A stretch of DNA of 64,000 nucleotides. Origin: Natronosalvus vescus (GTDB lineage: Archaea; Halobacteriota; Halobacteria; Halobacteriales; Natrialbaceae). The notes below the pieces were generated by a model. The model was not told the DNA's origin. It ran no database searches and was given only the letters and a program-made list of their open reading frames with translations. Below are positions 12,601-17,753 of the stretch, in pieces. The DNA lies in contig NZ_CP099546.1 of assembly GCF_023973145.1 (NCBI RefSeq), forward strand, positions 2,542,001 through 2,606,000, read 5' to 3'. The position numbers were made by a program, and so were the translations under genes. Every line of letters starts with the position of its first letter. Position 1 is the stretch's first letter.

Positions 12601-12835
12601 AGCACAACCATTATCAGTTTGAATCCGGAACGTCTGAATGGCGCATACGTCCACCATACCACCTACCACTGTGCGCCCGGCTGTGTCCATACAGCCGTTT
12701 TTGGCGAAACCACTCCTTACTCACCGTCGATTTAATTCCCTCGAGACGCACTGCCGATTCGACTCCCTCGAGACGAATCGTTCGCCCAACTGCACGAACG
12801 AAATCTGTTTACCGCCAAGCCCGATAGCATGGACA

Positions 12836-14815
12836 GTGACCGACGAACAGCCCTCCCCATCGGATGACGAACCCGTGGATTCCGCGGATTCGACGGCTGC
12901 CGAGGACGACCTGACCGGACTCTCGCTCTCGCAGTTTCACGACGCTTGCCAGCGAGCGGGTCGGCCGGTCGTCACCGCGTCGGAAGTCGCCCGCGCGGTC
13001 GAGCGCGCACAGACCGCGGTGAGCGACGATCTGGAATCCCTCGCCACGGACGGTGTGCTCGAGCGATTGGCCGTCTCGCGAGATCCCGTCGTCTGGTTCC
13101 CGTCGGAACTCGAGGATCTCACCGAACGCGAGCGGGTGGTCGTCTTCCCCAAACGCCGTGAGATCCTCGTCGATCAACCGGAACAGTTCACCCGCGCCCA
13201 GCTTTCGCAGTTCGCCCACCTCGCGGATACGAACGGCGAGGGTGGATACCGGTACCTCGTCCGCCCAGAGGACGTCTGGCAGGCGCCACACGACTCGTTT
13301 TCGGGGCTCCGTCGAACGATGCGCCAGGCGCTCGGCCAGCGATCGGACGCCCTCGAGGACTGGGTCGAGAGCCAGTGGGATCGCGCCAGCCAGTTCCGAC
13401 TCACCACCCATCCCGACGGCTACACGGTGCTCGAGGCGCGATCCCCCGAGATAATGGGCAACGTCGCCAGACAGAAACTCGACGAATCGCACGTCCACGC
13501 GCCCATCTCCGACACCGAAGACTGGGTGCGAGAGGGATCGGAGGCGGCGATCAAGCGCACCCTCTACGAGGCGGGGTACCCCGTCCGGGACGACCGCGAC
13601 CTCGAGTCCGGGGAGCCCCTAGAGTTCGCCCTCGAGGTCTCACTCCGGGACTACCAGCAGACCTGGGTCGATCGCTTCCTCGAGCAGGGCGAGGGCGTCT
13701 ACGTCGGCCCGCCGGGGAGCGGGAAGACGATCGCCGCCATTGCGACGATGGAGCGCGTCGGCGGGGAGACGCTGATCCTCGTCCCGAGCCGTGACCTCGC
13801 GCGTCAGTGGGCCGAAACCATCGTCGACGTGACGTCGCTCGACCCGAGCCAGGTCGGCCAGTACCACGGCGGCCAGAAGACGATCCGGCCGGTGACGGTC
13901 GCCACCTACCAAATCGCGGGGATGGATCGCCACCGCTCGCTCTTCGACGAGCGCGAGTGGGGGCTGGTGGTCTTCGACGAGTGCCAGCACGTCCCTTCGG
14001 ACGTCTACCGCCGTAGCACCCACCTCCAGTCCCGTCACCGACTGGGATTGTCGGCGAGTCCAGTGCGGGAGGACGACCGCGTCGCCGAAATCTTCACCCT
14101 GATCGGGCCGCCGATCGGCACCGACTGGGAGGCGCTGTTCGAGGCCGGCTTCGTCGCCGAACCCGAACTCGAGATCCGGTACGTGCCGTGGGGAGACGAC
14201 GAACACGGAAACGCCTACGGCTCAGCCGACGGCCGCGAACGCTACCGGCTCGCGGCGACGAACCCCGGCAAGGTACAGGAGGTTCGGTACCTGCTCGCCG
14301 CCCATCCCAACGCACGGGCGCTCGTGTTCGTCGACTACCTCGAGCAGGGTCGCGACATCGCGGCGGCACTGGACGTCCCCTTCCTGAGCGGCGAGACGCC
14401 CCACCTCGAGCGCCAGCGACTGCTCGATGCGTTCCGGCACGACGAACTCGACACGCTCGTCCTCTCACGGGTGGGCGACGAGGGGATCGACCTGCCGAGT
14501 GCGGATCTGGCGATCGTCGCCTCCGGGTTAGGTGGGTCGCGACGACAGGGAACCCAGCGAGCGGGTCGGACGATGCGACCCGCTGGCGGCGCGCTGATGT
14601 ACGTGCTGGCGACGCGCGGGACGCGAGAGGAGGAGTTCGCCCGGCGACAGCTCCAGCACCTCGGTCGACAGGGGGTGACGGTTCGCGAGGAGACCGTCGA
14701 GCGCGACCTCGAGGGCGAGGACGAGGCCGAGGTCGACGCCGAGGGTGGGGTCGACACCGAGCGTGATGCAGAGACCGATGGTGACTCGACGGCGACGTCC
14801 GATGAACCTAGCTGA
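12836..14815 (+). CDS. rad25: Rad25/XPB-type DNA helicase
   Basis: 659-residue superfamily 2 helicase related to XPB of nucleotide excision repair and transcription. Motif I is GPPGSGKT, motif II FDECQH, motif III GLSASPVR, motif VI QRAGRTMRP; motif Ia ILVPSRDLARQW. The N-terminal ~230 residues contain a winged-helix-like segment (SEVARAVERAQTAVSDDLES) and damage-recognition-like region. GTG at 12836 gives MTDEQPSPSDDEP; longer readings upstream include non-halophilic sequence. The last ~55 residues are a Glu/Asp tail. The flanks suggest a monocistronic unit. Confidence 0.9.
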   Translation: MTDEQPSPSDDEPVDSADSTAAEDDLTGLSLSQFHDACQRAGRPVVTASEVARAVERAQTAVSDDLESLATDGVLERLAVSRDPVVWFPSELEDLTERERVVVFPKRREILVDQPEQFTRAQLSQFAHLADTNGEGGYRYLVRPEDVWQAPHDSFSGLRRTMRQALGQRSDALEDWVESQWDRASQFRLTTHPDGYTVLEARSPEIMGNVARQKLDESHVHAPISDTEDWVREGSEAAIKRTLYEAGYPVRDDRDLESGEPLEFALEVSLRDYQQTWVDRFLEQGEGVYVGPPGSGKTIAAIATMERVGGETLILVPSRDLARQWAETIVDVTSLDPSQVGQYHGGQKTIRPVTVATYQIAGMDRHRSLFDEREWGLVVFDECQHVPSDVYRRSTHLQSRHRLGLSASPVREDDRVAEIFTLIGPPIGTDWEALFEAGFVAEPELEIRYVPWGDDEHGNAYGSADGRERYRLAATNPGKVQEVRYLLAAHPNARALVFVDYLEQGRDIAAALDVPFLSGETPHLERQRLLDAFRHDELDTLVLSRVGDEGIDLPSADLAIVASGLGGSRRQGTQRAGRTMRPAGGALMYVLATRGTREEEFARRQLQHLGRQGVTVREETVERDLEGEDEAEVDAEGGVDTERDAETDGDSTATSDEPS

Positions 14816-14922: not shown

Positions 14923-15315
14923 CTACAGTTCCACGCGAGGGGTGGCGACCTGGCCGTCGGGTTCGGCCGCAGCCTCGGCCTCCGCGTCGGCTTCGACGAC
15001 CGCGGCTCGCTCGGCCTCGGCGGGAACCCGGGTCACCTCCTCGACGGTTACACCGAAGGCGTCGTTCAGCTCGCGTCTCACGAGCGCCAGATCCTCGCCA
15101 CGCTCGCCGACGAGGTCGATCCGGGCCTCGAGCGTGACGGTCGTATCGTTCAGGCCGGGCTCGAGGCCGCGGACGGTGGCGTCGACGACGCGGTCGACGG
15201 TCGCGACTCGTTCGACGATTCGTGCGCCCGCAGTGACGAGGTCGCCAGTCGCGTTCACGGGAACGCGCACGGCGAGCGTCGCCACGACGGTACGTGGGTA
15301 GTCTGTTCGTGCCAT
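14923..15315 (-). CDS. Uncharacterised protein with strongly folded leader
   Basis: 130 residues: a β/α-like domain (TVVATLAVRVPVNATGDLVT ... LVRRELNDAFGVTVEEVTRV) followed by a ~30-residue Ala/Glu-rich tail. No known family recognised. ATG at 15315 is the first start with halophilic composition; the frame is open further upstream, but that sequence is unlike coding DNA and contains the cloverleaf-like fold at 15319-15381, ending three bases before the ATG. Convergent with rad25. Confidence 0.6.
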   Translation of the reverse strand: MARTDYPRTVVATLAVRVPVNATGDLVTAGARIVERVATVDRVVDATVRGLEPGLNDTTVTLEARIDLVGERGEDLALVRRELNDAFGVTVEEVTRVPAEAERAAVVEADAEAEAAAEPDGQVATPRVEL

Positions 15316-15318
15316 GAG

Positions 15319-15381
15319 TCCCCCGCCGCGAGTCGAACGCGGCGGGTGGGCGGTGCCCACGCGGTGTCCAACACCGGGGGA
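15319..15381 (-). other. Cloverleaf-like RNA fold abutting a start codon
   Basis: Read on the minus strand, TCCCCCG (15375-15381) pairs perfectly over 7 bp with CGGGGGA (15319-15325) like an acceptor stem. Inside are a short GTG-TTGGA-CAC hairpin, a perfect GTGGGC-ACC-GCCCAC hairpin (15346-15360) and a 5-bp T-arm-like stem whose loop reads GTTCGACTC, the tRNA T-loop consensus. It is 63 nt, lacks U8, a proper D-arm and a 7-nt anticodon loop, so it is not a normal tRNA. The same bases can form other hairpins (CCCGCCGCG/CGCGGCGGG, 9 bp). Confidence 0.45.
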
Positions 15382-15890
15382 AACCGCGTGATTCAGACTC
15401 GTCGGCCAAACGGGAGCGTCGAGACACCGACCACCAATAGCAGTGTGGGGCCAGTGTGTGAAGACAAACCGTCCGGCCGGACGAATGAACCTACGCGGCG
15501 CGGACGGTGACCCCGTCGACCATGTTCGACGGAATCGGGTGACCGGATTCCAGTCCACGACCTGCGAGTCCGGGGGTACCGGAGTCAGCGGTGACGCCAT
15601 ACCGTCCGGAGACGGCGGCGACACCGACCTTCCCGGCCCACGCGTTGCCACTCGGGGTGGCGCTTGCGTCGGTCGGGACGGTCGTGGTGGTGATCATCGG
15701 TGGTCGTGATCGCTCGGTGGCGATCAGCTATCGAACACATCTGGCCGGAGTGTCATAATCGTTTCCCCGGGTTGACAGAAGTTCGCACACCTCGAGGGTC
15801 GCGACTGTTACGAAGAGGCGAACCTTCAAGGTAACACGTGGGCAGTGTGTCGATAATGAGCGAGTTGCGTGCACGTGGTGGGGTGAAACG
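15382..15890. other. Intergenic region upstream of HerA-like gene
   Basis: No gene can be supported. A 14-bp perfect palindrome CGTCCGGCCGGACG lies at 15470-15483. CACGCGGT (15358-15365) and ACCGCGTG (15383-15390) can pair across the cloverleaf-like fold. A 68-codon minus-strand frame (15491-15697) is Gly/Ser/Thr-rich with no recognisable domain. ATGAGCGAG at 15856 precedes the GTGAGCGAG start of the next gene by 35 bp, out of frame. Confidence 0.35.
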
Positions 15891-17753
15891 GTGAGCGAGA
15901 CCCGCGAGGTTCTCGTCGGCGAATCGGCAGCGGGAGACGACGTCACACTCCCCGTGGTCGAACTGCTGACCGGCCGTGGGTTCGTCACCGGGAAGTCGGG
16001 ATCCGGGAAGTCGAACACGGCATCGGTAATCGCCGAGGAGTTACTCGAGGCGGGCTTTCCCCTGCTCATCGTCGACACCGACGGGGAGTACTACGGGCTG
16101 AAAGAGGAGTACGAGATGCTCCACGCGGGTGCCGACGAGGAGTGTGACATCCAGATCGGCCCCGAACACGCCGAACAGATGGCGTCGCTGGCGCTCGAGG
16201 AGAACGTGCCCGTGATCCTCGACGTGTCTGGGTATCTCGACGAGGAAGAGGCCGACAAACTGTTGCGGGAGACGGCCCGACAGCTGTTCGTCAAGGAGAA
16301 GAAGCTCAAAAAGCCGTTCTTGCTCGTCGTCGAGGAGGTTCACGAGTACATCCCGGAGGGGGGCGGCATGGGCGAAACCGGTCGATTGCTGATTAAAATC
16401 GGCAAACGCGGCCGCAAACACGGTCTCGGCATCCTGGGCATCAGCCAGCGGCCAGCGGACGTCAAAAAGGACTTCATCACGCAGGCGAACTGGCTGGTCT
16501 GGCATCGACTGACCTGGGAGAACGACACCAAAGTCGTCGGGCGGATCATCGATACGGAGTACTCCGAACTCGTGTCGGAACTCGACGACGGCCAGGCGTT
16601 CATCCAGATGGACTGGATGGATGCGGGCGTCAGCAAGATTCAGTTCCGGCGCAAGCGAACCTTCGACGCCGGGGCCACGCCGGGGCTGGACGACTTCGAA
16701 CGTCCCGAGTTGAAGTCCGTCTCCGACGCGCTGGTCGACGACCTCCAGAACATCTCCGAGCGGAAGAACCGCGAGGAAGACCGGATCGAGGAACTCGAGA
16801 AACGGCTCGATTCGAAGGAGTCGCGCATCGAGAGTCTCGAGGACGAACTCTCCTCCGCACGAGACGTCTCGGAGGCGGCCCGACAGATGGCCGACGCGCT
16901 CTCCCAGGCCGACACGGTACAGACGACGTTCCCGGATTCCGGCGGCGATCTGCGTCGATTGCACGACGAACTGGTCGAACTCGAGGAGAAGCGGGACGAA
17001 CTCACCGAACGGCTCGAGGAACGCGAGGCCGAAAACGAGGAACTTCGGGAGGAACTCGAGGAGCGCGACCGGTGGGTGACCGAACTCGAGGAACGAATCG
17101 AGCACCTCGAGGCCGAAAACGACGAACTTCGCGAGCGCTGTGTCGAACTCGAGTTGTGGCTCGAGCCCGCCGATGGTGAGGAGCCCGACAATATTCTGGT
17201 TGCGCCTGTAGACGACGACTCGAGGGCTGGCGACGTGGGCCAGGCGGACGGGGCCGATGGGTGCGATGGCAGCGACGGAGCCGAGGAACGCGAAGAGACG
17301 CCCATCGTCCACGCCGGCGGTGACGACCTCGCGTTCGGCTACACCGACGTCGAGGACGCGAGCGACGAGGAGATCCTCGAAGGCGACGAGCGAACGGTTG
17401 CGGAGGTTAGAGAGCGTGAACGCGAACGCGACCTGCTCGTCGCCGACGAGTACGAGACGATCGACGGCCTGCTTGGCCTCGAGGAGATCGAAGCACGCGT
17501 CCAGGCGGCCTGTGACGACTCACGGTGTGGCGAACCGACGGCCCGACGCGTCATCGAGACGGTCGCGATCGACGGGCCGCTCGAGACGGAGGCCGTCGCG
17601 GCGGCGGTCGACCGGTCACCCGTCGCCGTCCAGAGTCTGCTCTCCGAACTGCGAACCCGAGACGTTCTCGATCGACGGGACGACGGCACCTACGTGCTGG
17701 ATCGGTGGTTGCTCGAGGCGCTCGAGTCGGTTCCGTCGCCGGAGTCCGACTGA
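15891..17753 (+). CDS. HerA-like ATPase with long coiled coil and winged-helix end
   Basis: 620-residue DUF87/HerA-type P-loop ATPase. Walker A GKSGSGKS at residues 34-41, Walker B-like LLIVDTDGEYYG and LLVVEEVHEY, and sensor-like GILGISQRP. From about residue 275 to 430 runs an uninterrupted coiled coil (repeated EELEKRLDSKE, ELTERLEEREAENEELREEL), then an acidic linker and a C-terminal winged-helix-like domain (TARRVIETVAIDGPLETEAV ... LLSELRTRDVL). Probably a hexameric DNA translocase or related motor; no NurA nuclease neighbour is present, so a repair role is not certain. GTG start at 15891. Confidence 0.82.
   Translation: MSETREVLVGESAAGDDVTLPVVELLTGRGFVTGKSGSGKSNTASVIAEELLEAGFPLLIVDTDGEYYGLKEEYEMLHAGADEECDIQIGPEHAEQMASLALEENVPVILDVSGYLDEEEADKLLRETARQLFVKEKKLKKPFLLVVEEVHEYIPEGGGMGETGRLLIKIGKRGRKHGLGILGISQRPADVKKDFITQANWLVWHRLTWENDTKVVGRIIDTEYSELVSELDDGQAFIQMDWMDAGVSKIQFRRKRTFDAGATPGLDDFERPELKSVSDALVDDLQNISERKNREEDRIEELEKRLDSKESRIESLEDELSSARDVSEAARQMADALSQADTVQTTFPDSGGDLRRLHDELVELEEKRDELTERLEEREAENEELREELEERDRWVTELEERIEHLEAENDELRERCVELELWLEPADGEEPDNILVAPVDDDSRAGDVGQADGADGCDGSDGAEEREETPIVHAGGDDLAFGYTDVEDASDEEILEGDERTVAEVRERERERDLLVADEYETIDGLLGLEEIEARVQAACDDSRCGEPTARRVIETVAIDGPLETEAVAAAVDRSPVAVQSLLSELRTRDVLDRRDDGTYVLDRWLLEALESVPSPESD

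Follow-up and report, generated by a model that had tools for sequence, protein, structure and literature searches.

A tRNA-like element at the start codon of a haloarchaeal gene family and its possible role as a tRNase Z processing signal

The locus and its tRNA-like element

The window analysed here, a stretch of 64,000 nucleotides from the Natronosalvus vescus genome, carries on its minus strand an ORF for a 130-amino-acid protein (positions 14923 to 15315, stop codon included). The ORF converges with a gene for an XPB-like helicase (12638 to 14815, plus strand), an arrangement also found in several relatives, and diverges from one for a coiled-coil-containing HerA-like ATPase (15891 to 17753, plus strand). 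Homologue searches, AlphaFold and Foldseek place the 130-amino-acid protein in an unannotated haloarchaeal family with a predicted ferredoxin-like fold. Searches of Pfam, NCBIfam and PDB sequences with the protein returned no related family. Homologues were present in 31 of 61 relatives, and a profile search extended the family to 234 of 391 Halobacteria genomes and 63 of 86 genera. AlphaFold modelled the core confidently as strand-helix-strand-strand-helix-strand (mean pLDDT 85.8); Foldseek gave weak ferredoxin-like matches only (DUF211 proteins, S6 and EF-1 beta; best E 4e-3).

The DNA preceding the initiation codon on the minus strand can form a 63-nt cloverleaf-like fold, hereafter the tRNA-like element or TLS (15319 to 15381), identified by folding, family conservation and covariation. 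Read from 15381 to 15319, the strand consists of TCCCCCG, GTGTTGGACAC, CGC, GTGGGCACCGCCCAC, CCG, CCGCG, TTCGACT, CGCGG and CGGGGGA, and is followed by CTC and the ATG at 15315. All seven bases of the 5′ strand of the acceptor-like helix, TCCCCCG (15375 to 15381), pair with the 3′ strand, CGGGGGA (15325 to 15319). The T-arm, CCGCG-TTCGACT-CGCGG (15326 to 15342), has a 5-bp stem and a loop at 15337 to 15331. A hairpin at the place of the anticodon arm (15346 to 15360) has a 3-nt loop, carries no anticodon and differs widely in length among relatives. A further hairpin, GTGT-TGG-ACAC (15364 to 15374), reads as a shortened D-arm: several relatives from the window's family (L017, L019, L020 and L022) keep U8 and a longer, GG-containing D-loop, as in the arrangement TA-GTGT-ACTGGTCA-ACAC of L017. 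Between acceptor and ATG lie a discriminator-like C and a 2-nt spacer (15318 to 15316). Refolding agreed with a preliminary description of this DNA, which had reported a cloverleaf with a perfect 7-bp acceptor, two hairpins and a 5-bp T-arm ending 3 nt ahead of the start codon, and had remarked on the lack of U8, a normal D-arm and an anticodon loop.

The minimum free energy of the 63-nt TLS was −38.5 kcal/mol (z = −2.9), a value equalled by 3 of 200 shuffles; longer folding windows favoured a competing fold over the cloverleaf. A competing hairpin (15358 to 15390, minus strand) pairs CACGCGGT (15390 to 15383) with ACCGCGTG (15365 to 15358) and is conserved only near the window's genus. Since folding energy alone is weak evidence in GC-rich DNA, the reality of the TLS was judged from conservation and covariation. 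Neither ARAGORN nor Rfam called a tRNA at the TLS, which lacks the 7-nt anticodon loop, the U8 and the normal D-arm of a functional tRNA. The element is present once in the whole genome. The two strands of the window hold 1037 ATGs between them, and the one at 15315 alone is preceded at the corresponding distance by a T-arm with a 5-bp stem and TTCGA in its loop.

Conservation and covariation in the Halobacteria

Upstream DNA was extracted for 126 non-identical homologues and 98 clear cases were counted; a further locus, L055, in which an alternative ATG puts the register out of step, was left out of the count. Every counted locus has a T-loop of the form TTCGANN, TTCGACT in 71 instances, closed by a T-stem of 5 bp (88 loci) or 4 bp (10 loci). 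The gap between the acceptor 7-mer and the ATG measures 2, 3, 4 and 5 nt in 63, 29, 5 and 1 loci, respectively, so that the tie to the downstream start codon, previously noted for the window, holds at all 98 loci. The codon frame 5′ of the ATG varies among relatives (CTATG versus CTCATG) though the nucleotides persist, indicating that the TLS is conserved as such and not as part of a protein. On these grounds, a protein-coding cause of the upstream conservation was excluded.

Acceptor pairing was assessed by a swap test that searched the 140 nt 5′ of the T-arm, at 73 non-redundant loci, for a perfect complement to bases one to six of the 3′ acceptor strand; this procedure superseded a graded-score swap test that had little power over GC-rich regions. 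The complement was present in 78% of the loci's own upstream sequences, as opposed to 14% of sequences swapped in from partners with a different acceptor and 20% of shuffled ones. For loci with rare acceptors the figures were 80% and 11%. In a gapless acceptor and T-arm alignment of 60 distinct sequences, 95.1% of cells were paired, 9 of the 12 pairs showed changes on both sides and the covariation score was 0.41, values biased towards pairing in the acceptor, whose 5′ strand was picked as the best match, unbiased in the T-stem, and controlled by the swap test. The paired fraction and the score fell to 80.5% and 0.155 on shuffling, and did not exceed 54% and 0.13 when partners were slid. Compensatory changes between related genomes, which the preliminary description had proposed to look for, are thus found in both acceptor and T-stem. 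In the acceptor they replace the helix as a whole: UCCCCCG/CGGGGGA in the window corresponds to UCCCUCG/CGAGGGA in L010, GCCUCCG/CGGAGGC in L018, GCUUCCG/CGGAAGC in L114, GCGCCCG/CGGGCGC in L027 and CCCCUG/CAGGGG in L115 and L129. Within the TLS helices, G.U combinations outnumbered A.C combinations by 16 to 5, as expected for an RNA of the minus (TLS) strand. The arrangement can be lost, as seen from two exceptions in family f17: in L128 the TLS lies 19 nt 5′ of the ATG and in L131 an extended hairpin, devoid of the T-loop, takes the place of the T-arm.

Genome scans measured the specificity of the association. A pattern combining T-arm, acceptor and ATG, GTTCGACTCNCGNCGNGGGNNTATG, yielded 32 matches over 257 Gb of prokaryote genomes. 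Twenty-nine of these were haloarchaeal, all preceding a gene of the family, and two of the remaining three were real tRNAs. When a looser pattern was applied to the 391 Halobacteria genomes, 72 matched, 71 of them only once, and the family gene was found downstream in 29 of the 30 matches read; a reversed control pattern had no match in the same 391 genomes.

The leader contains a second conserved hairpin (15468 to 15508, minus strand) with arms ACCGTCCG and CGGACGGT and apex GCCGCGTAGG. A similar hairpin was found in 77 loci, usually 150–250 nt 5′ of the ATG. Its arms change together across families, each family's version staying complementary, and a CCGCGTRA core is mostly retained; several families have a three-way junction at this position. 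Covariation within the window's own family is moderate. The hairpin is possibly a new structured RNA domain. Short conserved stretches also directly adjoin the TLS on its 5′ side in many relatives, for example GGCCAGC in L019, L045 and L069, and a GAGAGGYATCGCT-like sequence in L025, L115, L118, L127, L129 and L130.

tRNA-like relatives and plasmid paralogues

Acceptor and T-arm are the only parts of the TLS that are universal across the family. The region corresponding to D- and anticodon arms ranges from a single hairpin (L109, L111, L119) to the very long stems of Halorubrum. In two species, a near-complete tRNA-Glu(UUC) occupies the TLS slot, 3 nt before the ATG (L070, 364 to 438, minus strand; L073, 344 to 418). 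ARAGORN calls this element a tRNA-Glu, and its alignment score is 67 versus a maximum of 28 for shuffled sequences. These tRNA-like relatives, the tRNA-Glu among them, indicate that the TLS is derived from a tRNA or exchangeable with one. Across the relatives the tRNA mimic shrinks in some and grows in others, a natural series that reveals the parts retained by selection.

Members of a second subfamily, about 26–32% identical, are preceded at a distance of about 56–61 nt by a tRNA-Gly(GCC)-like sequence; their ATG has a Shine-Dalgarno-like GGAGATGA or GAGGTGA in front of it. On haloarchaeal plasmids, these paralogues are found immediately 3′ of a TROVE (Ro60-like) gene, preceded in turn by an array of 13–22 further tRNAs on the two plasmids read. 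The complete succession of tRNA array, TROVE gene, tRNA-Gly(GCC)-like sequence and paralogue extends from 3394 to 8294 in L174 (NZ_CP118160.1) and from 130 to 5285 in L175 (NZ_CP119561.1). This plasmid region looks like a tRNA/RNA-quality-control island. The position of the paralogues after tRNA-Gly and beside the TROVE gene suggests that the family protein is tied to tRNA biology, probably as a tRNA- or RNA-handling factor. TROVE (PF05731) is absent from the window's genome and from most genomes carrying its subfamily. The tRNA-Gly-like element is itself variable. In L089 it has two extra hairpins 5′ of the T-arm and a total length of 124 nt, which makes a working tRNA unlikely; in L082 it looks truncated, with the T-arm and the 3′ part of the acceptor left.

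Interpretation of the leader

The reading we favour, with a probability of about one half, is that the leader ends in a t-element, that cleavage by tRNase Z at this element would generate a leaderless mRNA, and that the encoded protein is probably a tRNA- or RNA-handling factor. The leader would be transcribed and fold into the TLS, and tRNase Z would cut after the discriminator position, predicted to be C15318. The cut would leave 1–4 nt ahead of the AUG, producing the leaderless type of mRNA that haloarchaea mostly use. No Shine-Dalgarno sequence is visible in the uncut leader, where a very stable helix abuts the AUG. Protein output would then follow the cellular capacity for tRNA 3′ processing. 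The preliminary description had named RNase P and tRNase Z as enzymes that could create the mRNA 5′ end. An RNase P cut would fall 5′ of the TLS and only the 3′ cut, that of tRNase Z, would itself yield such an end, a role that fits TLS anatomy and the 5S rRNA precedent.

That precedent comes from Haloferax, where the t-element of 5S rRNA is processed by tRNase Z (PMC3296008, PMC4326828) and t-elements flanking a crRNA undergo processing in vivo (PMC4326828). Leaderless transcripts, which have 0–5 nt by definition, account for 72% of coding transcripts in Haloferax (PMC4983044), and the TLS-ATG gap falls inside this definition at all 98 loci. Cutting of 5S t-elements by tRNase Z and the leaderless length of the 1–4 nt remainder are what favours a tRNase Z-made leaderless mRNA. 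The window's genome has its own tRNA-like elements before 5S rRNA (L216, L218), which stop 3 nt short of the 5S match; one of them consists of acceptor and T-arm only. The minihelix of acceptor and T-arm is the part recognised by tRNase Z, and the retention of both while other arms vary counts in favour of this enzyme. The near-complete tRNA-Glu(UUC) that fills the TLS slot in L070 and L073 speaks for the t-element as well. The leaderless outcome is further favoured by the paralogues, which have their tRNA-like sequence at a distance and carry a Shine-Dalgarno-like stretch instead. Counting against the t-element are the displaced and T-loop-less variants of f17 and, where a t-element is taken as the whole explanation, the hairpin 150–250 nt upstream, for which a simple processing signal does not account. 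Moreover, the predicted Haloferax t-elements examined by Hölzle in 2012 were reportedly uncleaved in vitro, and the TLS could serve as a binding site only. A purified H. volcanii tRNase Z exists.

Like the 5S t-element of Haloferax volcanii (PMC3296008, PMC4326828), in which acceptor and T-arm suffice, other hairpins are optional and an anticodon is dispensable, the TLS would sit directly 5′ of the mature end of a functional RNA, its acceptor stopping 2–5 nt before the ATG at all 98 loci. Of the defining parts of a t-element, the T-arm with its tRNA T-loop was found at 98 of 98 loci, and the acceptor showed covariation. The TLS differs in that it is followed by a start codon and not by an rRNA, that its cleavage is predicted, and that it has an extra structured domain upstream. 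tRNA-like folds also act as RNase P/tRNase Z processing marks in mascRNA and mitochondrial t-elements, which are eukaryotic, whereas the product predicted here is a leaderless archaeal mRNA. Tentatively, the arrangement might represent a new type of archaeal gene control, in which tRNase Z turns an untranslatable transcript into a leaderless one and output tracks, or feeds back on, tRNA 3′ processing, with the CCGCGURA hairpin perhaps acting as a sensor. The literature searched contained no paper on a tRNA-like processing mark conserved as an mRNA leader; such marks before haloarchaeal 5S rRNA are already known. If the cut occurs, it would define a post-transcriptional route to leaderless mRNAs in haloarchaea and connect tRNA metabolism with a protein family that is widespread and unstudied.

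The TLS might instead be a tRNA-mimic operator, bound in its own leader by the ferredoxin-like product or by another tRNA-binding protein that represses translation or processing. ThrRS represses its own synthesis through such an operator. The predicted fold, the abutment of the TLS on the start codon and the vicinity of tRNA-Gly and TROVE genes to the paralogues speak for this possibility, which we consider rather unlikely: the arms beyond acceptor and T-arm vary in sequence and length, and the ability of a near-complete tRNA-Glu to replace the TLS fits a general tRNA-processing signal better than an operator. In operators of the thrS type and in T-box leaders, too, the leader of an mRNA holds a structure that resembles or senses tRNA, but the TLS is archaeal and lacks a specifier, an antiterminator and any mimic of an anticodon. 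No T-box or known riboswitch was matched in the leader by Rfam, relaxed thresholds giving chance-level hits only.

The leader, with its upstream hairpin domain and tRNA-like domain, could also be a stand-alone Y-RNA-like RNA whose 3′ end abuts the gene. The bacterial Y RNA YrlA, a partner of Ro60/Rsr, has a tRNA-like domain that is anticodon-free like the TLS (PMC8394870), and TROVE loci hold paralogues of the TLS-associated gene. However, TROVE is co-encoded with the plasmid paralogues only, no basal stem joining 5′ and 3′ ends was detected in the leader, and the TLS abuts an ORF with a spacing, constant within 2–5 nt, that an independent RNA would not need. We therefore regard this explanation as improbable.

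The preliminary description had also proposed that competing stems would allow switching. Both stems are indeed present, and a cleavage-free switch, in which cloverleaf and competing hairpin alternate to gate access to the start codon, would agree with the longer folds and with the CACGCGGT/ACCGCGTG-type stem, kept with a compensatory change in the window's genus (L002–L008) and similar in L010. Switching did not prove general: anti-acceptor pairing is not family-wide, a 5-mer complement occurring in 32% of own upstream sequences versus 12% of swapped and 20% of shuffled ones, mainly for one acceptor type, which makes such a switch quite improbable. Lastly, although some relatives clearly resemble tRNAs, a functionless decayed tRNA gene or integration site is barely conceivable given the class-wide compensatory changes and a pattern that is single in nearly all matching genomes and almost invariably precedes the family gene.
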